In this document: positions 3,392 through 60,087 of the stretch, piece after piece | How positions within the stretch are numbered: the first letter of the stretch is position 1 | How the letters are laid out: each line of letters opens with the position of its first letter | Assembly: GCA_001787535.1 (NCBI GenBank) | Contig: MFXP01000011.1 | Span: 1-63,712, forward strand | Direction of reading: 5' to 3' | Length of the DNA stretch: 63,712 nucleotides | Source of the DNA: Candidatus Peribacteria bacterium RIFCSPHIGHO2_01_FULL_51_35 | GTDB taxonomy: Bacteria; Patescibacteriota; Gracilibacteria; Peribacterales; Peribacteraceae | Translations under genes and position numbers: made by a program | The notes under the pieces: generated by a model | Seen by the model: the letters and a program-made list of their open reading frames with translations, nothing else | What the model was told of the DNA's origin: nothing | Database searches by the model: none

Positions 3392-3454
3392 AATGACCAA
3401 TGACCAAAACTCAATGACCAAGTTGGTCATTGGTCATTGCGTCATTGGTCATTT
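3392..3454. repeat. word-repeat hairpin, AATGACC family, copy 1
   Basis: Left arm AATGACCAATGACCA (3392-3406) is the exact inverse complement of the right arm at 3424-3438. The right arm continues with GCGTCATTGGTCATTT. Three more copies (26081, 49365, 50344) share this right-arm layout. It lies three bases after the RNase stop and just before the ABC permease. Confidence 0.85.
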
Positions 3455-8471: not shown

Positions 8472-8500
8472 GTAGAGACGCGCGATTCGCGCGTCTCTAC
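8472..8500. repeat. GTAGAGACGCGCG palindrome supplying the lysS stop
   Basis: A near-perfect 29-base palindrome, GTAGAGACGCGCG and its inverse around ATT. Its right edge contains the TAG stop codon of lysS (8497-8499, minus strand), so the element forms the end of that gene. The same palindrome occurs at 21278-21306. Confidence 0.85.
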
Positions 8501-13903: not shown

Positions 13904-14350
13904 ATGAAAGCCTATCTCTCTTCCGTCCGCATCGCGCCCAAGAAAGCAAACCTCATCGCCAAGATGGTGAGAGGCATGTCGGTGCCCGTTGCCGTGGAAG
14001 CGCTCCGCAGGACGAACAAGAAAGCGGCGCGCATCGTGGAGACCTTGCTCCGCTCCGCCATCGCGAACACGTCCCATAACGACAAGCAAGATCCGCAAAT
14101 GCTCATCATCAAAACCATCGTCGTGAACCAAGCGCAGGCGTACCACCGAGGCATCCCCAAGGCGCGCGGACAGGTACGGCCGATCCGCAAATACTTATCG
14201 CACATCTCCCTTGTATTGGGTTTCCCGGAGATAGAAGAAAGCGGCGAAAAGATTCAGAAGAATCAGAGGAATCAGAAGAAATCTTCTTCTATCAAAAATA
14301 AGAAATCCTCTGAATCTTCTGCATCTTCTGATTCCTCTGCTTCCTCATAA
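13904..14350 (+). CDS. rplV: 50S ribosomal protein L22 with repeat-encoded tail
   Basis: 148-residue L22 (uL22), whose beta-hairpin lines the exit tunnel. The normal domain covers residues 1-109 (from MKAYLSSVRIAPKKANLIA to KYLSHISLVLG). The remaining 39 residues are an Asn/Gln/Lys-rich then Ser-rich tail encoded entirely by an inverted word repeat (14250-14347). A similar tail occurs in L29. The next gene starts two bases after the stop. Confidence 0.94.
   Translation: MKAYLSSVRIAPKKANLIAKMVRGMSVPVAVEALRRTNKKAARIVETLLRSAIANTSHNDKQDPQMLIIKTIVVNQAQAYHRGIPKARGQVRPIRKYLSHISLVLGFPEIEESGEKIQKNQRNQKKSSSIKNKKSSESSASSDSSASS
14250..14347. repeat. word-repeat hairpin inside the rplV coding region
   Basis: Words of the type GAATCAGAAG make the left arm (14250-14279) and their complements CTTCTGATTCCTCTG the right arm (14314-14346). 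Translated in frame the left arm gives QKNQRNQKK and the right arm SSESSASSDSSASS, so the repeat has become the protein's C-terminal tail. Confidence 0.85.
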
Positions 14351-15447: not shown

Positions 15448-15780
15448 ATGGCAACCATCCTCACCACCAAGGAGCTCCGCAATATGACTCGTGAAGATCT
15501 TCTCAAAGATGTCACGGCGCAGCGCGGCCTGGTCGCAAGACTCAACATGGGTATTCGTTTGCAGAAAGAGAAGGACACGGCGAAGTACCGCAGGGAGAAG
15601 CGTGCGCTGGCGCGGATGATGACGATCCTTACGGAGAAGAATCAGATGATTCAGACGAATCAGAAGAAACAGAAGAATGGATCCTCTGAATCATCTGATT
15701 CTTCTGATTCCTCCGTATCCGCTTCGACGAAGAAACCATTGAAGAAAACAACCAAGAAATCTACACTATCCGCCCTATGA
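15448..15780 (+). CDS. rpmC: 50S ribosomal protein L29 with repeat-encoded tail
   Basis: 110-residue L29 (uL29); typical L29 has 60-70. The helical core ends near residue 61 (RRMMTILTEK). The remaining residues are encoded partly by an inverted word repeat (15634-15715) and read NQMIQTNQKKQKNG then SSESSDSSDSS, followed by a Lys/Thr-rich end. The same kind of tail occurs in L22. It overlaps rpsQ by four bases (ATGA). Confidence 0.93.
   Translation: MATILTTKELRNMTREDLLKDVTAQRGLVARLNMGIRLQKEKDTAKYRREKRALARMMTILTEKNQMIQTNQKKQKNGSSESSDSSDSSVSASTKKPLKKTTKKSTLSAL
15634..15715. repeat. word-repeat hairpin inside the rpmC coding region
   Basis: Left arm of GAATCAGATGATTCAGACG-type words, right arm of the complementary TCTGATTCTTCTGATTC words, around a GGATCC centre near 15680. 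It belongs to the same word family as the repeat inside rplV and is translated in the equivalent frame. Confidence 0.82.
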
Positions 15781-20714: not shown

Positions 20715-21223
20715 AAAAATCTCTTATTATCATTGCGCAGGAAGGATTTCAAGATAAAGAACTTGAGGGAACCAGAAATGGATTGGAAGCCGCAGGATTT
20801 TCGATCATTCTCGCGAGCACGAAGAAAGGAGAGTGCCGAGGAAAATTCGGAAGTGTGGAACAAGCAGAGATCGCTCTGAAAGATGTGAATGTTTCCGATT
20901 ACGATCGCATTGCATTCATAGGCGGACCCGGCGCGGCTGTTCTTAAAGATGATCTGCAGGCTCTCCGCATTGCTCAAGAAACGGTAAAGGCAAAGAAGCC
21001 GCTGGGTGCCATTTGCATCGCCCCGACGATCTTGGCTGCTGCGGGTGTTCTCAAAGGAAAACAAGCGACGGGATGGGATGATGGAGAGGGAACGCAGATT
21101 CGGTTCCTCGAGGCATCGGGTGCAATCTTCACCGGTGAATCCGTCACGAAGGATGGATTGATTGTGACGGGAAATGGACCGGAGGCGGCGGAGGAATTTG
21201 GAAGAGTGTTTGCGGGTTTGTAG
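20711..21223 (+). CDS. DJ-1/PfpI family protein
   Basis: 170-residue protein of the DJ-1/PfpI superfamily, which includes peptidases, deglycases and chaperones. The nucleophile elbow is GAICIAPTILA with Cys102, and an oxyanion-type FIGGPGAA lies at 69-76. Glu17 (QDKELEG) is placed like the conserved Glu that tunes the cysteine. The exact activity cannot be told from sequence. It is translationally coupled to the 95-residue orphan. Its TAG stop lies inside the palindrome at 21220. Confidence 0.82.
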   Translation: MKKSLIIIAQEGFQDKELEGTRNGLEAAGFSIILASTKKGECRGKFGSVEQAEIALKDVNVSDYDRIAFIGGPGAAVLKDDLQALRIAQETVKAKKPLGAICIAPTILAAAGVLKGKQATGWDDGEGTQIRFLEASGAIFTGESVTKDGLIVTGNGPEAAEEFGRVFAGL

Positions 21224-21247
21224 AGCCGCGACATGTCGCGGCTCTAC
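21220..21247. repeat. GTAGAGCCGCGA palindrome supplying the pfpI stop
   Basis: GTAGAGCCGCGACA is followed at once by TGTCGCGGCTCTAC, a perfect 28-base palindrome. The TAG at 21221-21223 is the stop codon of the PfpI gene. It is a sequence variant of the GTAGAGACG family. Confidence 0.87.
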
Positions 21248-21277
21248 AAACAACGAATGAAAATATGATCGTCGTCG

Positions 21278-21306
21278 TAGAGACGCGCGATTCGCGCGTC
21301 TCTACG
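21278..21306. repeat. GTAGAGACGCGCG palindrome
   Basis: Same sequence as the palindrome at 8472-8500. It lies 30 bases after the previous palindrome and just before the 3' end of the SLH-CAP gene on the other strand, so the two may act as a bidirectional 3' boundary. Confidence 0.85.
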
Positions 21307-23048: not shown

Positions 23049-23049
23049 T

Positions 23050-23124
23050 GTTTTATTGTTATATTGTTCGCAAGCGTGTTTATGAGTTCCTCCTCCTCTC
23101 ACCTAGCAATATAACAATATAACA
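23050..23124. repeat. word-repeat hairpin, TTGTTATA family, copy 2
   Basis: TTTTATTGTTATATTG and the core TATTGTTCGCAAGCG on the left, AGCAATATAACAATATAACA on the right. Located between rplO and secY. Confidence 0.87.
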
Positions 23125-23158: not shown

Positions 23159-24436
23159 GTGTTTACATATCTACTTCAACTCTGGCGGTCTGAAGATTTG
23201 CGCAAACGCATCCTCATCACGCTCGGTCTGCTGCTCATCTATCGCATTGTCGCACACATTGCCATTCCGGGTGCGGACCCGTTCGCTCTTCGCCAATTTT
23301 TGGACTCGCGCAGCGCCACGGGCGCCATCGGTATCTTCGCTGCACTTACGGGAGGCGCGCTCGATAATTTTTCGATCGTGCTGTTGGGTCTTTCACCCTA
23401 TATCAATGCGTCCATCATCATCCAGCTCTGTACGGTGATCTTCCCGAAACTGGAAGCGATTTCCAAGGAAGGAGCACAGGGACAGCAACAGCTCAACCGC
23501 TACACGCGTTTTCTCACACTGCCGCTCGCATTCCTCCAGAGTTACGGGTTCCTCATCCTCCTCAGTCAAGGCGGCGTGAACTTGGTCGACCTCAGTTTTC
23601 CGAACGTCCTTGCTCCCATGCTCTTCGTCACGACAGGTTCGCTGTTCATCATGTGGCTGGGAGAATTGATGACGGAAAAAGGCATCGGGAATGGCATTTC
23701 CATGATCATCTTCGCCGGCATCGTTTCGGGCATTCCTTCGACCGTGAGCGCGCTGCTCATCGCGGGGCAAGGCAAGATGGGTGCCTTTTACCTGTTCGCC
23801 ATCGTCTCCGTCGCACTGCTCGTCATGGTGGTGCTGTTCACAGATGCACATCGTCTCATCCCCATCACCTACGCGAACCAAGGGGCGGGACGCGGCGTGC
23901 AAGGAAATATTCCCATTCGTTTGAACCAAGCGGGCATGATCCCGATCATCTTTGCGATTTCATTGATCACGTTCCCGGCCATCATTGCGCAGTTCCTGCA
24001 GACGGCTCCGCGCTTCGCGCCGGTCGTGCGCTTCATCAATGAGTACATGAACTCGCAGAACCCCAGCATGCTCTACATCATCCTCTACTTCCTGCTCGTC
24101 CTTGGCTTCACATTCTTCTACGTGTCCGTCACGTTCAAGCCGGAGGAAGTGGCAGAGACCATCCAGAAGAGGGGAGGCTTCATCCCCGGCGTTCGCCCCG
24201 GCGCCCAAACTGCAGCTCTCCTCGCAAAAACCAGCAATCGCATGAACCTCTGGGGAGGCACCTTCCTCGGCATCGTTGCGATCATTCCTCTGCTCTTCAC
24301 GAAGTACTCCACGCTCAGCGCGTCCGACCTCATCATCTCCGGTTCGGGTCTTATCATCATCGTGGGTGTCGTGATGGAATTGATCCGCCAGATCAATGCG
24401 CAGCTTTTGGCTCACGACTACGAAAAACTCGTGTAG
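23159..24436 (+). CDS. secY: preprotein translocase subunit SecY
   Basis: 425-residue channel subunit of the Sec translocon, with ten hydrophobic transmembrane segments (first near residues 17-37, last near 395-415). The plug region and cytoplasmic loops are conserved, including IPIRLNQAGMIPIIFA and KRGGFIPGVRPG. It starts with GTG at 23159 after a pyrimidine-rich leader (CTCTTCTTACTCTCCCAC). All the exported proteins of this window depend on it, except possibly the Tat-type protease. Located in the standard position after rplO. Confidence 0.96.
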   Translation: MFTYLLQLWRSEDLRKRILITLGLLLIYRIVAHIAIPGADPFALRQFLDSRSATGAIGIFAALTGGALDNFSIVLLGLSPYINASIIIQLCTVIFPKLEAISKEGAQGQQQLNRYTRFLTLPLAFLQSYGFLILLSQGGVNLVDLSFPNVLAPMLFVTTGSLFIMWLGELMTEKGIGNGISMIIFAGIVSGIPSTVSALLIAGQGKMGAFYLFAIVSVALLVMVVLFTDAHRLIPITYANQGAGRGVQGNIPIRLNQAGMIPIIFAISLITFPAIIAQFLQTAPRFAPVVRFINEYMNSQNPSMLYIILYFLLVLGFTFFYVSVTFKPEEVAETIQKRGGFIPGVRPGAQTAALLAKTSNRMNLWGGTFLGIVAIIPLLFTKYSTLSASDLIISGSGLIIIVGVVMELIRQINAQLLAHDYEKLV

Positions 24437-24486: not shown

Positions 24487-24960
24487 ATGCCTTTCACGGA
24501 ATCCGTCGGCAAACCCTTAGATATCCAATTTGATGAACTCGGGAAGTTTTTGGAAGGGCGTTCTCCCTATACAACGGCGAATGCTATTGTTTCACAGATC
24601 CGCTATCAAATTGACTCCTCAGAGGCTTTCCATAGGCACCCGCATCTTTTTTATACAAAAACAGGAGAGAAGGGTGTGCCATCCCATGCGGTTTCCAAAG
24701 CAGGCAGGCACGATTACTTTCAAATCTTGCCTTCCGATGCCATTCATCCTACCCGGCAGCGTTTAGAAGGGGTTGAACTAACAGTGTTGCTGCGTTCTGC
24801 GGAGATGTCATTGAACCGCTTTGCGCTCTTTCTTCAGACCGGCACATGTTTTCAAAATAGGCAGTCGGCAGAAGAACATGTGGAAACAGTTCTCAAAAGC
24901 CTTCCTGAAAAAGAAGGTGCAACTCTGCGCGCACGTTTTGAAGATTTGAGAAATGCATGA
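24487..24960 (+). CDS. orphan gene between secY and adk
   Basis: 157-residue soluble protein without a recognised family, 50 bases after secY. It contains seven histidines, several in a short stretch (AFHRHPHLFY, residues 49-58), and one cysteine, but no clear metal-site pattern. The middle (QILPSDAIHPTRQRLEGVELT) is moderately hydrophobic and the end is helical. secY and adk are normally adjacent, so this is an inserted gene. It ends ten bases before the four-helix-bundle gene on the other strand. Confidence 0.6.
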   Translation: MPFTESVGKPLDIQFDELGKFLEGRSPYTTANAIVSQIRYQIDSSEAFHRHPHLFYTKTGEKGVPSHAVSKAGRHDYFQILPSDAIHPTRQRLEGVELTVLLRSAEMSLNRFALFLQTGTCFQNRQSAEEHVETVLKSLPEKEGATLRARFEDLRNA

Positions 24961-24970
24961 TTACGAAAAA

Positions 24971-25420
24971 TTAATGTAGAACCGGGGAAGGTACGGTAGG
25001 TCTGGTAGGTACGGTAAGTAAGGTAGGGGAAGTGCTTTTGATAGATCGTAAGGGTTTCAAAGAGGCGGACAATCGGTAGATTAAATAGGAAACCTTATTC
25101 ACCATTTCCAGAGCTGCCGAATATTCTTTGTCTGTGAGATACTTCAAATCATGTGCGAGTTCTAAAAAATTATCCACTTCTGCAGCAGAAGCGTACGCAC
25201 GATCGTAATACAATTTTTTGTGCGGCTTCGTTGGCATGCGCGATCCTTCTGCCAATTGAGCGCCCACAGAGCTTGCTGCGTCACGAAGTTGGCTGATAAC
25301 ACCATACCGTTCCTCTCGTGGAAAATGATTGGTGATTTGATACACAAAAATTGTTAATCGATGTGCTTCTTGCCAAGCGCGTAACGCTCTAAATCCACTT
25401 TTATACGTGAGAGGTTGCAT
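24971..25420 (-). CDS. four-helix-bundle protein (23S rRNA intervening-sequence family)
   Basis: A 149-residue protein of the family often annotated as four helix bundle or S23 protein, first known from open frames inside intervening sequences of 23S rRNA. The core runs from YKSGFRALRAWQEAHRLT through QLRDAASSVGAQLAEGS to YLIYRLSASLKPL. The related Avd protein of diversity-generating retroelements has the same fold. I start at ATG 25420 (MQPLTYKSG); ATG 25462 is possible. The last 20 residues (PTLLTVPTRPTVPSP) are encoded by the left arm of an inverted word repeat. The gene opposes the operon and lies between the two arms of that repeat. Confidence 0.82.
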   Translation of the reverse strand: MQPLTYKSGFRALRAWQEAHRLTIFVYQITNHFPREERYGVISQLRDAASSVGAQLAEGSRMPTKPHKKLYYDRAYASAAEVDNFLELAHDLKYLTDKEYSAALEMVNKVSYLIYRLSASLKPLRSIKSTSPTLLTVPTRPTVPSPVLH

Positions 25421-25517
25421 GTGTACGAATGTACACCTTCTCTTTTCAACAAGCAAGAGCAATTCCTTTTCCCTACCAGACCTACCTTACTTACCTTACC
25501 TACCTTACTATTCCCCC
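24982..25517. repeat. inverted word-repeat arms (GGTAGGTAC family) enclosing the four-helix-bundle gene
   Basis: Left arm 24982-25032 is built from GGTACGGTAGGT, GGTAAGTAAGGTAGG words. The right arm 25467-25517 holds their complements (CCTACCAGACCTACCTTAC and following). Matching words such as AAGGTAGGTCTGGTAGG occur in both. The 434 bases between the arms hold only the four-helix-bundle gene. A gene-free hairpin of the same family is at 31754-31856. Confidence 0.8.
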
Positions 25518-26078
25518 ATGGATCTCGTCTTTTTTGGTATCCAAGGATCGGGAAAAGGAACACAAGCGAAACGTCTTGCGACTGAGTTTGGCTATGACAT
25601 TTTTGAAGCAGGTGGTGAGCTCCGAAAAATTGCAGCATCCGGATCGGAGCTTGGGATGAAGGTGAAGTCGTATATCGATCAAGGTCATCTCGTGCCACAT
25701 GAAATTATCATGCAGGTGGTGAAAGAAGCGATAGCTGCCAGACCTGCATCGCAGCAGATTTTGTTCGATGGCATTCCACGCGATGCGGATCAGAAAAAAG
25801 ATTTCGATGCGATCATGAAAGAAGTCGGCCGTGATTTTCGATGCATTCATCTTCTGCTGGATCCGGAAGAAGGACTGCAGCGCATCTTCGGGCGTGCGAA
25901 GGCGGAAGGACGTGCGGATGACAGCAATGAAGAAATTATCCGCAGGCGCATGAAAACATTTACCGAAAAGACCATGCCGGTGATTGAAGAATATAAGAGG
26001 GCAGGGAAGGTGATAGAGGTGGATGGACAAGGAACGGTGGAAGAGATCTATGGGGAACTGAAGAAAACCATCGCGTGA
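25518..26078 (+). CDS. adk: adenylate kinase
   Basis: 186-residue short-form adenylate kinase, which interconverts ATP, ADP and AMP in the cytosol. P-loop GIQGSGKGTQAK (residues 7-18), AMP-binding DGIPRDADQKKDFD (family: GFPRT), and the LID stub RAKAEGRADDSNEEIIRRR. It lacks the zinc LID. I start at the ATG at 25518; it is immediately preceded by the right arm of the word repeat, ending in CCCCC. Confidence 0.93.
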   Translation: MDLVFFGIQGSGKGTQAKRLATEFGYDIFEAGGELRKIAASGSELGMKVKSYIDQGHLVPHEIIMQVVKEAIAARPASQQILFDGIPRDADQKKDFDAIMKEVGRDFRCIHLLLDPEEGLQRIFGRAKAEGRADDSNEEIIRRRMKTFTEKTMPVIEEYKRAGKVIEVDGQGTVEEIYGELKKTIA

Positions 26079-26080
26079 GG

Positions 26081-26155
26081 AATGACCAATGACCATAGAC
26101 CATAGACCAACTGTGAATTTTTCTTGGTCATTGGTCATTGCGTCATTGGTCATTT
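26081..26155. repeat. word-repeat hairpin, AATGACC family, copy 2
   Basis: AATGACCAATGACCA on the left and TGGTCATTGGTCATTGCGTC then ATTGGTCATT on the right. The left arm also contains two CATAGAC words that break the pattern. Located two bases after adk and before map. Confidence 0.87.
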
Positions 26156-28076: not shown

Positions 28077-28523
28077 ATGGCTGATTCACCTCTCGATCTA
28101 CTGGCAGGACCCGACGCAGCTGAAACTCCCGAAGCAGGAGGGAAGAAGCCTGCGCGAAAAAAGAAAGTGAAGCGCACGGTTCCCATTGCACGCGTCTGCA
28201 TCCATGCCGGTGAAAACAACACCATCGTCACCTTTACAGATCCGCAAGGAAACGTGCTGGCGGGAGCCAGCTGCGGCAGCGCAGGGTTCAAAGGAACCAG
28301 GAAATCGACGCCGTACGCAGCCAAAGTCGCAGCCGAGACCGCCGCCCTCAAAGCCAAGATCTACGGCGTCGAAACCATCAATGTAGAAGTGAGGGGCCTC
28401 GGACCCGGACGCGAACAGGCCATCCGCGGTCTGCAAGGAGCAGGACTCAACTTGGACGCGATTATCGATGTCACTCCCATCGCGCATGGTGGATGTAGGC
28501 CTGCAGGACGACGACGTGTGTAA
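28077..28523 (+). CDS. rpsK: 30S ribosomal protein S11
   Basis: 148-residue S11 (uS11), on the 30S platform at the mRNA exit. The core from [17 protein letters not shown] to the C-terminal [12 protein letters not shown] is conserved. An N-terminal extension of about 30 residues ([18 protein letters not shown]) is longer than usual. Its TAA stop overlaps the first base of the following word repeat. Confidence 0.96.
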
Positions 28524-28656
28524 TGGACAACTGACAATGAACAATTGACAATTTTTTCTCTCATGAATATCTCTCTTCTCACCTCGGGCAACTCTCAGCA
28601 CTCACACAAGTGCGCGCAAAGCGCGTTGTCAGTTGTCCATTGTCCATTTTCAATTC
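28522..28656. repeat. word-repeat hairpin, GACAATGG family, copy 2
   Basis: AATGGACAACTGACAATGAA and CAATTGACAATT on the left (28522-28552), TTGTCAGTTGTCCATTGTCC and ATTTTCAATTC on the right (28626-28656). The loop is about 70 bases. It fills the rpsK-rpsD spacer. Confidence 0.85.
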
Positions 28657-31753: not shown

Positions 31754-31856
31754 AAGGTCAGGTAAGTCCGGTAGGTATGGTAGGTCAGGTAGGTTTTTCG
31801 GCTGCATCAAAATTGCCCCTACCTTACATACCTTACTTACCATACCTACCTTACAA
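31754..31856. repeat. word-repeat hairpin, GGTAGG family, gene-free copy
   Basis: AAGGTCAGGTAAGTCCGGTA and following words (31754-31794) face CCTACCTTACATACCTTACT and following words (31818-31855). It is the same word family as the arms around the four-helix-bundle gene at 24982-25517, but with a loop of about 25 bases and no gene. Confidence 0.85.
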
Positions 31857-32332: not shown

Positions 32333-32683
32333 CTATTTCGACAAGTTCTTCAGCATTGCCACAACGGTCTTTTCGAGTACAGGAAGCCCTTTTTCTATTG
32401 TGTCCCAGATTGTTGTGAGGTCGATTTCAGAGTAATCATGAACGATAATATTGCGCATGCCAATGATTTGCTTCCATGGGATTTCTGCGTATTGCCCCTT
32501 CATGGATGAAGGGAGCTTTGCTGCCGCTTCCCCTACAATGGAAAACTGGCGAATAACGGCATCTTGCGTCTTTTCATCTTTAAAAAACAGATCCCTGCTT
32601 TCTTTGGTATAGGCTCTGATCTTTCCAATTGCAGAGACAATGTCGTGGAGATAGACGCCATAATCTTTCTTTGCCGCCTTCAT
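32333..32683 (-). CDS. hepT: HepT-type toxin (HEPN RNase)
   Basis: 116-residue HEPN-domain protein (DUF86). The active-site motif R-x4-H-x-Y is intact: RNIIVHDY, with Arg77, His82 and Tyr84. In studied HepT-MntA pairs HepT is the toxin, an RNase, and MntA blocks it by AMPylating the tyrosine of this motif. It follows the mntA gene with a four-base overlap, so both belong to one operon on the minus strand. Confidence 0.85.
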   Translation of the reverse strand: MKAAKKDYGVYLHDIVSAIGKIRAYTKESRDLFFKDEKTQDAVIRQFSIVGEAAAKLPSSMKGQYAEIPWKQIIGMRNIIVHDYSEIDLTTIWDTIEKGLPVLEKTVVAMLKNLSK

Positions 32684-32967
32684 AAAGAACGGGCTTCGGC
32701 AAAAATGCGATCTCGCAGCATCGGTTTGATGGAACGTGCCGGAACCACATCAACCTTTCGCTTGAGAGCATCCTCCAGATCAATCTTCAGTCCGGAGAGA
32801 TCAAAAAGACTCATCCCTTCCGGCAGATCAATAAGAAGATCGACGTCACTTGTTTTGCGCTGCTCACCACGCGCGAAAGATCCGAAAATGCGCACATTGC
32901 TCACGCCATATTCTTGTGTGATTTTAAGAACGATGGGGCGCAGCTTCGCTATCGTGGACGGGCTCAT
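32680..32967 (-). CDS. mntA: MntA-type nucleotidyltransferase antitoxin
   Basis: About 95-residue minimal nucleotidyltransferase. The motif GSFARGEQRKTSDVDLLID carries the GS and the D-x-D metal pair. I start at MSPSTIAKLRPIVL (32967), the typical family N-terminus; in-frame ATGs at 33000 and 33015 would add 11 or 16 basic residues. It precedes hepT, overlapping by ATGA, giving a type VII toxin-antitoxin pair. It lies about 90 bases from an insertion sequence, fitting a mobile accessory patch. Confidence 0.83.
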   Translation of the reverse strand: MSPSTIAKLRPIVLKITQEYGVSNVRIFGSFARGEQRKTSDVDLLIDLPEGMSLFDLSGLKIDLEDALKRKVDVVPARSIKPMLRDRIFAEARSL

Positions 32968-33056
32968 CCTTTTTGCCTTTGTTGATCGTTTCGTGCGCAT
33001 GAGATGAGATCTCATTTTACCATATTGAGATCAAGGGCGCATCAAAGGGCTTCCTG

Positions 33057-33889
33057 GGGACTAGACCAGAAGTGAGTTGATTTTTCTTGTGAGAAGGGCG
33101 GAAAGAACAGAAACTCTGGTCTGGTATTCTCGAATATTGTAGCGAAACATCACTTCGGAAAGGAATTGTGGAAGAGAATTTCGGGGAATACCTCGGTAGA
33201 TGTGCCATGACAGAGGCTTCAGGTGCCCCCAAATGCCTTCCTGCGTATTCGTGTGCACGAAGGTTGCTTGGCTGTTTGTGAACTCTCGCGCATGGCAGAC
33301 AGTCATGTGATTGGAGAGCCCGAGATATCCAAGCCATTCATCGGTGAAGACAAGTCCGTTGGGATCGCTGTGGCGCTCCACGAGAGGAATGAGTGTGTCT
33401 CCTCTACGATCCGGAACAACTTGCAGCAAGCATTGCTTGAGCTGCCTGGAAACACCGCCGAGAACCCACTGCGTTGTGGAAATCGTTTCATCCCACTCTG
33501 ATGCCCCGGCAAATACGTGGGTTCCAAGCTCTTTACGAGCAGACGGAATGTTCTGTTCAATTTTTGCGCCGTCTTTCGATTCACCTCCATCGTACGGGCA
33601 AGATCTGCTGCAGATTCTCCTGCACGCTTGCAGAAGCACCGAGTTGCATGATCCCACTGTGCATCGCTTAGGTGGCTGCCGCTTTTGAATGTCCGTGTTC
33701 GCTGCGTGAAAATCTTCCTGCAGAGCAGGCACTGATATCGCTGTCTTCGACGAGCATCATTGCCAAACTTTCGAACATCGCTGATACCGCAGAAGCGGCA
33801 AAAAATAGTTGGTGCAGGCATTTTGGAGAGAAGAAGGCTTGTACAAGCCCATTCTCACATATTCATCAACTCATTTCTGGTCTGCTCCC
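33057..33889 (-). mobile_element. IS1595-like insertion sequence, 833 bp
   Basis: Ends are matched inverted repeats: GGGACTAGACCAGAAGTGAG at the left and the inverse complement of CTCATTTCTGGTCTGCTCCC at the right, about 22 of 25 positions identical. An exact 8-bp direct repeat, GCTTCCTG, flanks it (33049-33056 and 33890-33897). An 8-bp target duplication is the known habit of IS1595-type elements. It contains one transposase, broken by a frameshift. Insertion was between mntA and the subtilisin gene, harming neither. Confidence 0.88.
33061..33821 (-). pseudogene. IS1595-family transposase, frameshifted
   Basis: The first frame (from 33821) encodes a zinc ribbon, CRFCGISDVRKFG and CLLCRKIF, and a helix-turn-helix (DLARTMEVNRKTAQKLNRTF). 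The DDE catalytic part continues in another frame from about 33534: GASEWDETI, GLVFTDEWLGYL and HTNTQEGIWGHLK. The switch falls near GTAAAGAG (minus strand, about 33530-33537), a -1 change. The element is probably inactive, unless slippage restores the frame. Confidence 0.8.
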
Positions 33890-49364: not shown

Positions 49365-49427
49365 GAATGACCAAATCCCAATGACCAATGTCATTCCGGT
49401 CATTGGTCATTGCGTCATTGGTCATTT
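49365..49427. repeat. word-repeat hairpin, AATGACC family, copy 3
   Basis: AATGACCAAATCCCAATGAC on the left; GGTCATTGGTCATTGCGTCA then TTGGTCATTTT on the right. Lies between dprA and the membrane protein. Confidence 0.87.
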
Positions 49428-50343: not shown

Positions 50344-50412
50344 GAATGACCATAGACCAATGACCAATGTGAATCCATTCTGGTCATTGGTCGTTGCGTC
50401 ATTGGTCATTTT
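50344..50412. repeat. word-repeat hairpin, AATGACC family, copy 4
   Basis: AATGACCATAGACCAATGAC on the left; TGGTCATTGGTCGTTGCGTC then ATTGGTCATTTTT on the right. The right arm contains the TGA stop codon of tpiA on the minus strand (50406-50408). Confidence 0.87.
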
Positions 50413-51154: not shown

Positions 51155-51243
51155 GGTTATATTGCTAAATTGTCATATTGTTCGCAAGCGAGACTTTATC
51201 ATTCTGTCATAAACAATATAGCAATTTAACAATATAACAATTT
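51155..51243. repeat. word-repeat hairpin, TTGTTATA family, copy 3
   Basis: GGTTATATTGCTAAATTGTC and the core CATATTGTTCGCAAGCGAG on the left, ACAATATAGCAATTTAACAA and TATAACAATTT on the right. It fills the divergent tpiA-rpiB spacer. Confidence 0.87.
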
Positions 51244-52331: not shown

Positions 52332-52429
52332 AAATTGTTATATTGTTACATTGTTATATTGCTCGCAAGCGATGCTGGATCAGTTTGTCATTTTTCTATT
52401 AACAATAGAACAATATAACAATATAACAC
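52332..52429. repeat. word-repeat hairpin, TTGTTATA family, copy 4
   Basis: ATTGTTATATTGTTACATTG and TTATATTGCTCGCAAGCGA on the left, AACAATAGAACAATATAACA and ATATAACACTC on the right, with a 38-base loop. Between rpe and the lipoprotein gene. Confidence 0.87.
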
Positions 52430-60015: not shown

Positions 60016-60087
60016 GACGTAAGACTCAAGATGTAAGACATAAGACGAATATATTTTTCTTGTGTCTTGCGTCTTATGTCTTTTTTC
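60016..60087. repeat. word-repeat hairpin, TAAGACT family, copy 2
   Basis: ACGTAAGACTCAAGATGTAA and GACATAAGACG on the left, TGTGTCTTGCGTCTTATGTC on the right, with a 15-base T-rich loop. Lies between the convergent Dsb-like and Cys-rich protein genes; its right edge touches the stop codon of the latter. Confidence 0.83.

Follow-up and report, generated by a model that had tools for sequence, protein, structure and literature searches.

The window, the whole stretch of DNA that was analysed (63,712 nucleotides), holds between secY and adk a gene of the S23 family, the proteins encoded in 23S rRNA intervening sequences (IVS), together with two inverted arms built of tandem short words. The interval is organised as follows.

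23159-24436, forward strand: secY.
24487-24960, forward strand: ORF157, a lineage-specific frame of 157 aa between secY and the S23 unit.
24971-25420, reverse strand: S23 (23S_rRNA_IVP) four-helix-bundle gene, 149 aa (PF05635, TIGR02436, predicted model).
About 24985-25030, forward strand: 5′ arm, tandem 9-nt words GGTAGGTAC/GGTAGGTCT/GGTAAGTAA, G-rich when read inward.
25421-25436, reverse strand: near-perfect 16-bp palindrome GTGTACATTCGTACAC (GTGTACNNNNGTACAC), abutting the S23 ATG on its upstream side.
About 25471-25509, reverse strand: 3′ arm, the same words reverse-complemented (CCTACCAGACCTACCTTACTTACCTTACCTACCTTAC).
25518-26078, forward strand: adk.

The S23 product matches PF05635 23S_rRNA_IVP in Pfam (1.9e-27) and the TIGR02436 four helix bundle protein in NCBIfam (1.4e-23), with a weak match to the Avd equivalog HMM (1.5e-6). 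As the original prediction had claimed, this is the sole gene enclosed by the arms and it opposes secY-adk-map; its reading frame extends across the 5′ arm. The unit, a PF05635 frame flanked by complementary inverted ends as in a 23S rRNA IVS, lies between ORF157, which follows secY, and adk, and not inside a 23S rRNA gene. ORF157 has no family matches, and a tblastn search of 29 further adk loci did not detect it. The 9-nt word of the unit is GGTAGGTAA with variants, and the arms are inverted, 24-nt pairs in two registers being 96% and 88% complementary. A 17-mer that had been reported as common to both arms is exact on the complement of the right arm and has one mismatch in the left, 15 nt being exactly in common. 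The palindrome at the ATG is conserved in six further units (L031, L091, L094, L099, L108, and L127), of which four lie at secY-adk and two at other places, with other words, and is a possible autoregulatory operator or a start-site, translation-blocking hairpin.

The S23 protein of the window is predicted to fold as a four-helix bundle (pLDDT 91), the best PDB match being 2gsc, followed by 2rld and then by Avd, alone (4dwl) and in the ribonucleoprotein (RNP) of a diversity-generating retroelement (DGR; 8ub7), with a Foldseek probability of 1.00 and E of 0.013-0.015 for Avd. Since 2gsc and 2rld have five chains each, the S23 protein is probably a homopentameric ring. No catalytic or nuclease motif is known in the protein and no transposase is encoded in the unit.

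Arms of this kind accompany S23 genes very widely. The window genome (G000) has 12 PF05635 genes and, by eye, 10 of them have inverted word arms, each locus with a word of its own; the two that do not are L012, which is Avd-like and lies beside the only reverse transcriptase (RT) of the genome, and L009, a divergent copy. The family is present in 43 of 59 genomes of relatives, with up to 21 copies each, and 117 of 140 distinct loci in G000 and these relatives have arms above the 99th percentile of dinucleotide shuffles, the other 23 without detectable arms being in part Avd-like genes of DGRs and otherwise decayed or below the score threshold. In the G000 sample of about 460 kb (the window and 20 further stretches), only 0.9% of random 315-bp intervals have equally complementary flanks, and an unbiased scan of this sample for inverted word pairs spaced 220-1300 nt returned six pairs around S23 genes, four that arise from separate neighbouring gene-free hairpins, and one attributable to noise. 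Hence the association of arms and gene is not due to chance. For the scan of genomes across phyla, alignment A1 proved too diverse and a tighter protein set was substituted, so that the cross-phylum sample from GTDB genomes represents one protein subfamily; arms were found at 57 of its 80 loci (Patescibacteria, Bacteroidota, Synergistaceae, Anaerolineaceae, Omnitrophota, and Victivallales), mostly with TAG every 7-8 nt, and at 3 of 151 shifted controls. These two surveys bear out the expectation that homologues in related genomes would be regularly armed. Heptamer arms also occur at most of 14 cyanobacterial plasmid loci (AGGGAAC, TAGGGAG, TTAGCTT, AGGTGAC, CAGGAGT). In general an arm repeats a 7-9-nt word some four to six times, the word being usually G- and purine-rich inward, and in every S23 subfamily the gene has an arm on either side. 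Units are found inside operons in either orientation.

The words are related to the protein that they enclose. Over 181 units (362 arms) the period is 7 in 190 arms, 9 in 62, and 8 in 48, while shuffled arms give 1-4 arms per period. Protein distance correlates with arm word similarity (Mantel rho −0.27, 0 of 500 permutations; rho −0.06 for the distal-flank control), and nearest protein neighbours have the same word period in 76% of cases versus 47% expected (0 of 5000 permutations). Protein clusters are characterised by TAGNNNN, GAGGANNCA (9 nt), AATTGAC/AATGNNA, GTTTCTC/GGTTTNN, GGTAGGTAA (9 nt, secY-adk), GTTAAATTG (8 nt), and AGCTTTG. Cluster mates lie mostly at unrelated genomic sites (in the GAGGA class, 113 of 120 pairs have no flanking protein in common), from which it follows that the words move along with the gene and not with the locus; the exception is the orthologous secY-adk cluster. 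Cross-phylum tests of word versus protein distance have little power, the near-subfamily word permutation giving p = 0.04 and the enrichment of TAG every 7-8 nt among related proteins being stronger. Read from the sequences, co-inheritance of word and protein shows joint travel and does not by itself mean contact.

The same words also form hairpins that contain no gene. The original prediction placed one of the window-unit family near 31754-31856 and others, of different word families, over the window; the former was found with the same words at 31770-31850, and about 12-16 more are spread over the window. Together they include the following.

3392-3453: AATGACC family.
14260-14343: 9-nt words GAATCAGAG, of a class with S23 carriers in relatives (L025, L030).
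15635-15705: 9-nt words AGAAGAATC.
23049-23124: GTTATATTG family (words of S23 locus L008), in the rplO-secY interval, with CGCAAGCG adjoining the 5′ arm.
26081-26154: AATGACC words, those of the arms of G000 S23 locus L011, between adk and map.
28522-28641: GACAATT-like family (arms of S23 locus L007).
31770-31850: word family of the window unit (GGTAGGTATGGTAGGTCAGGTA), after rpsI.
49366-49426: AATGACC family.
50345-50403: AATGACC family.
51156-51238: GTTATATTG family.
52336-52428: GTTATATTG family.
60021-60082: AAGACTCAAG family (arms of S23 locus L002).

Some copies of the 8-nt-word family (GTTATATTG/GTTAAATTG), gene-bearing as well as gene-free, have beside the 5′ arm a small palindrome that reads CGCAAGCG or CGCAGAGCG (L161, L167, and window 23049-23124, 51156-51238, and 52336-52428).

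About 40 word hairpins were counted in the 460 kb of G000, and copies within one family have arm variants in common and differ in their loops. The ten resident word sets of G000 match a mean of 3.1 gene-free hairpins each, against 0.38 for 106 word sets from other genomes (p = 1.4e-6). Nine of 12 hairpins in G033 are matched best, or nearly so, by its own genes (p = 0.0009), and those of G003, where nine arm sets were used for 21 S23 genes, match its own words weakly (p = 0.07). These are dispersed inverted-repeat elements that match the flanks of a resident gene, as in REPIN/RAYT systems. Densities per 100 kb are 8.7 in G000 (12 S23 genes), 16.2 in G033 (21), and 10.0 in G003 (21), with a range of 4-16 in sampled S23-bearing genomes and one 20-kb sample that had none. 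No word hairpin was found in 166 kb from five S23-free genomes, where the pooled density of S23-bearing genomes predicts about 13; one of them, G006, has a gene-free hairpin outside this sample, at secY-adk (L092).

The comparison of secY-adk junctions with and without the unit that had been proposed was made at 30 adk loci, that of the window included. Seven have an S23 gene with arms, its words being of the GGTAAG type and the unit divergent from adk in every case, two have gene-free hairpins of other word families (L092, L095), L083 has one-sided words, and seven have a spacing of 2-41 bp and no repeat. Within the seven orthologues, each arm matches its own partner more closely than it matches others (permutation p = 0.02), most clearly where the word has changed. 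Judged by sequence comparison, the secY-adk unit is old and has been kept vertically, in the same place and orientation in seven genera. The window copy is therefore not a recent insertion, and some units are stable and perhaps useful; the window copy is an old unit belonging to a class that is mobile elsewhere.

The evidence for mobility comes from cyanobacterial plasmids. Trichormus and Scytonema have a unit at a site in the trb operon that is empty, with 98% flank identity, in Nostoc linckia and Tolypothrix; judged by length, four more records are empty there as well. The sequence is AAAAAGTAATTAACAAAT at the empty site and AAAAAGTAAT-[arms+S23]-GTAATTAACAAAT at the filled one, so that a target duplication of 5-8 bp is probable, GTAAT being an exact duplication of 5 bp and GTAATTAA one of 7-8 bp with one mismatch, consistently in three alleles. 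At the exact trb insertion point there is a gene-free CAGGAGT hairpin in Brasilonema and a truncated remnant in Nostoc C052, and in Aulosira the trb-site unit is present at 82.5% with unrelated flanks. L282 and L277 have arms plus gene in common as one block between unrelated flanks, and at one orthologous junction a gene-free hairpin (L289) stands opposite the S23-bearing one (L277). Five more comparisons involve filled and empty or gene-free sites (TraM, nrdB-nrdA, a recombinase, and the L282 and L272 sites), where junctions and duplications are blurred by divergence, the duplication being readable only at the one 98% pair. As for a transposable element, the units are present or absent at orthologous sites, with boundaries at the arms, the picture at secY-adk being coarser. 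Heptamer-armed units also lie between cas6 and cas4 of CRISPR loci in L275 (type I-D) and L279. The 23S_rRNA_IVP genes in cas or conjugation operons, including the surveyed CRISPR link, may be inserted passengers.

The S23 unit is probably a mobile hairpin element that consists of inverted word arms and one gene of the S23/Avd fold, with words specific to the protein subfamily. There is strong support for an autonomous unit, since arms recur in several phyla, words track subfamilies, hairpins match resident genes and are absent from sampled S23-free genomes, and one and the same site can be filled, empty, or occupied by a gene-free hairpin. We infer that the S23 protein recognises the words and mobilises the unit. 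An oligomeric ring would bind successive words in the single-stranded or hairpin form of its own arms, protein and arms would together be what is copied or moved, and both complete and gene-free hairpins would be served in trans. A staggered cut, which would be made by an enzyme encoded outside the unit, is suggested by the probable target duplication. If rRNA intervening sequences are a guide, the arm duplex is probably removed from operon transcripts by RNase III, as predicted from the arms, and insertions would thereby be tolerable.

The main rival, which we regard as unlikely though well ahead of the other alternatives, is that S23 is a word-binding regulator of the CsrA or TRAP kind, the hairpins being its regulatory or RNA-processing sites, its own arms autoregulatory, and the unit itself not mobile. 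Such a role would suit a unit kept vertically in seven genera at secY-adk with a better arm match within genomes (p = 0.02), a conserved palindrome at the ATG, and a protein lacking a nuclease motif, and heptamer repeats elsewhere have been proposed as regulator sites (PMC4679880). It does not account for sites that have or lack the unit at 98% flank identity, copies of the unit between unrelated flanks, a gene-free hairpin at an orthologous site, two-sided arms in every subfamily, or the same words at non-orthologous loci.

Two further readings are both improbable. In one, a RAYT/Y1 transposase or the RT of a retroelement moves them and S23 is a passenger, as might be supposed from the eight Y1_Tnp matches and one RT in G000, a correlation of S23 with Y1 counts over 59 genomes (rho 0.47), and the fact that the relative Avd acts with an RT. 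However, 12 of 43 S23-bearing genomes have neither, so that units and hairpins do not require Y1 or RT, and six such genomes contain 22 word hairpins in 432 kb (5.1 per 100 kb), which weakened this origin when it was tested; S23-free G005, G006, and G008 have Y1 or RT and no hairpins in the sampled stretches, and only S23 genes lie between arms in the unbiased pair scan. In the other, equally improbable, word hairpins exist first and the gene enters their loops as a homing-like passenger, without moving with the arms. The L289 and L277 pair and the variable loops of gene-free copies could be read in this way, but the empty sites at 98% flank identity have no hairpin at all, arms plus gene form one block common to L282 and L277, whose flanks are unrelated, and words track the protein rather than the place. 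Some genomes have many heptanucleotide repeats, for which polymerase slippage has been suggested (PMC4692102), yet ordinary slippage-prone microsatellites that are inverted and associated with S23 by chance are a very remote prospect, being contradicted by the inverted symmetry, the 0.9% background, the restriction to S23 genes, and the protein-specific words.

Among known systems, the closest to a mobile S23 unit are the rRNA intervening sequences. The 23S rRNA IVS of Coxiella has a 28-bp terminal stem and, immediately ahead of the start of its S23 frame, tandem GACAGAT heptamers, and its excision by RNase III has been shown in vitro (PMC4990558). Both kinds have a PF05635 protein and a single ORF within inverted complementary ends; unlike the IVS, S23 units reside in protein operons, intergenic DNA, and plasmids rather than rRNA, with several units per genome, words of each subfamily's own, and many gene-free copies outside rRNA. 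We conclude that the S23 unit is the rRNA intervening sequence generalised beyond rRNA. REPIN/RAYT systems resemble it in their dispersed miniature inverted-repeat elements, matched to one resident gene that has the same flanking sequences, and in the co-inheritance of protein and repeat (PMC3116915). They differ in that the S23 unit encodes a PF05635 protein with the fold of 2gsc, 2rld, and Avd, a four-helix bundle without the HuH chemistry of a Y1 transposase, and has arms of tandem 7-9-mers in place of a single palindromic REP with its conserved tetranucleotide foot, a gene inside the element, and many gene copies per genome. Of the original prediction of an autonomous unit with gene-free derivatives and a REP/RAYT-like logic, recurrence, word matching, and site states uphold the unit and its derivatives; the comparison holds as logic and not as membership, there being no Y1 HuH protein. 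Avd of DGRs has a homologous fold (4dwl; 8ub7 in the RNP), but the window unit has no adjacent RT with template and variable repeats (TR, VR), and the only RT of G000, on C16, lies beside L012, the Avd-like gene without word arms.

Intergenic tandem heptamers of cyanobacteria form the arms of L275-L284 (AGGGAAC, TAGGGAG), and we take the heptamer arms of the cyanobacterial plasmid S23 loci to be the repeat kind described as STRR. The resemblance extends to the period of 7, the intergenic position, the placement between operon genes, the scatter over phyla, and some inverted pairs, whereas the window unit has 9-mers and belongs to another phylum. Heptamer repeats such as GGGAATC/GGGGA(T/C)T (PMC4692102) and TAACTGA (PMC4679880) have been discussed as slippage, quadruplexes, or regulators without a link to S23 (PMC4692102, PMC4679880). 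Searches of the open-licence literature found no paper linking S23 genes to word arms outside rRNA, and a mobile unit of S23 gene plus arms outside rRNA genes seems not to have been described previously. More tentatively, and with the balance slightly against it, S23 proteins could define a widespread, unrecognised class of mobile element with a word code, in which oligomeric four-helix-bundle proteins without relationship to known transposases each recognise their own tandem 7-9-mer and spread it in the form of hairpins; this class could be the source of a large part of those heptamer repeats, STRR among them, that bacterial genomes contain without explanation, with rRNA IVS as a special case and Avd as a domesticated or sister branch. 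If true, this would provide a source and a cognate protein for heptamer repeats that have been known for decades and used in strain typing, explain the four-helix-bundle/S23 genes annotated in several phyla, connect intergenic hairpins with rRNA intervening sequences and with DGR Avd, and supply a protein-DNA or protein-RNA word code that is readable from sequence and testable at the bench.

Other repeats and genes were observed alongside. A second family of dispersed hairpins in G000 is 60-160 nt long (AACCCTCTCTCTGTCTCTCTCCCTA...GACGTCATT), one copy lying just downstream of the arm-less S23 gene L009, and was found at these places.

L174: 8855-8967.
L181: 6172-6293.
L182: 2187-2247 and 14760-14868.
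L186: 7877-7998.
L187: 11522-11633, 15092-15213, and 19141-19299.
L188: 12570-12677.

Near-perfect palindromes with a GTAGAG foot, like GTAG-tagged REPs, occur at window 8472-8500, 21216-21251, and 21276-21306 and elsewhere, and, together with the eight Y1_Tnp matches of G000, indicate that classical REP/RAYT may coexist with the word hairpins. On its reverse strand the window also has a HepT-like toxin gene and, next to it on the upstream side, a nucleotidyltransferase-like ORF, a pair of MntA/HepT type (32333-33015). An IS1-like transposase in two overlapping frames, apparently frameshifted, is present at 33061-33821.
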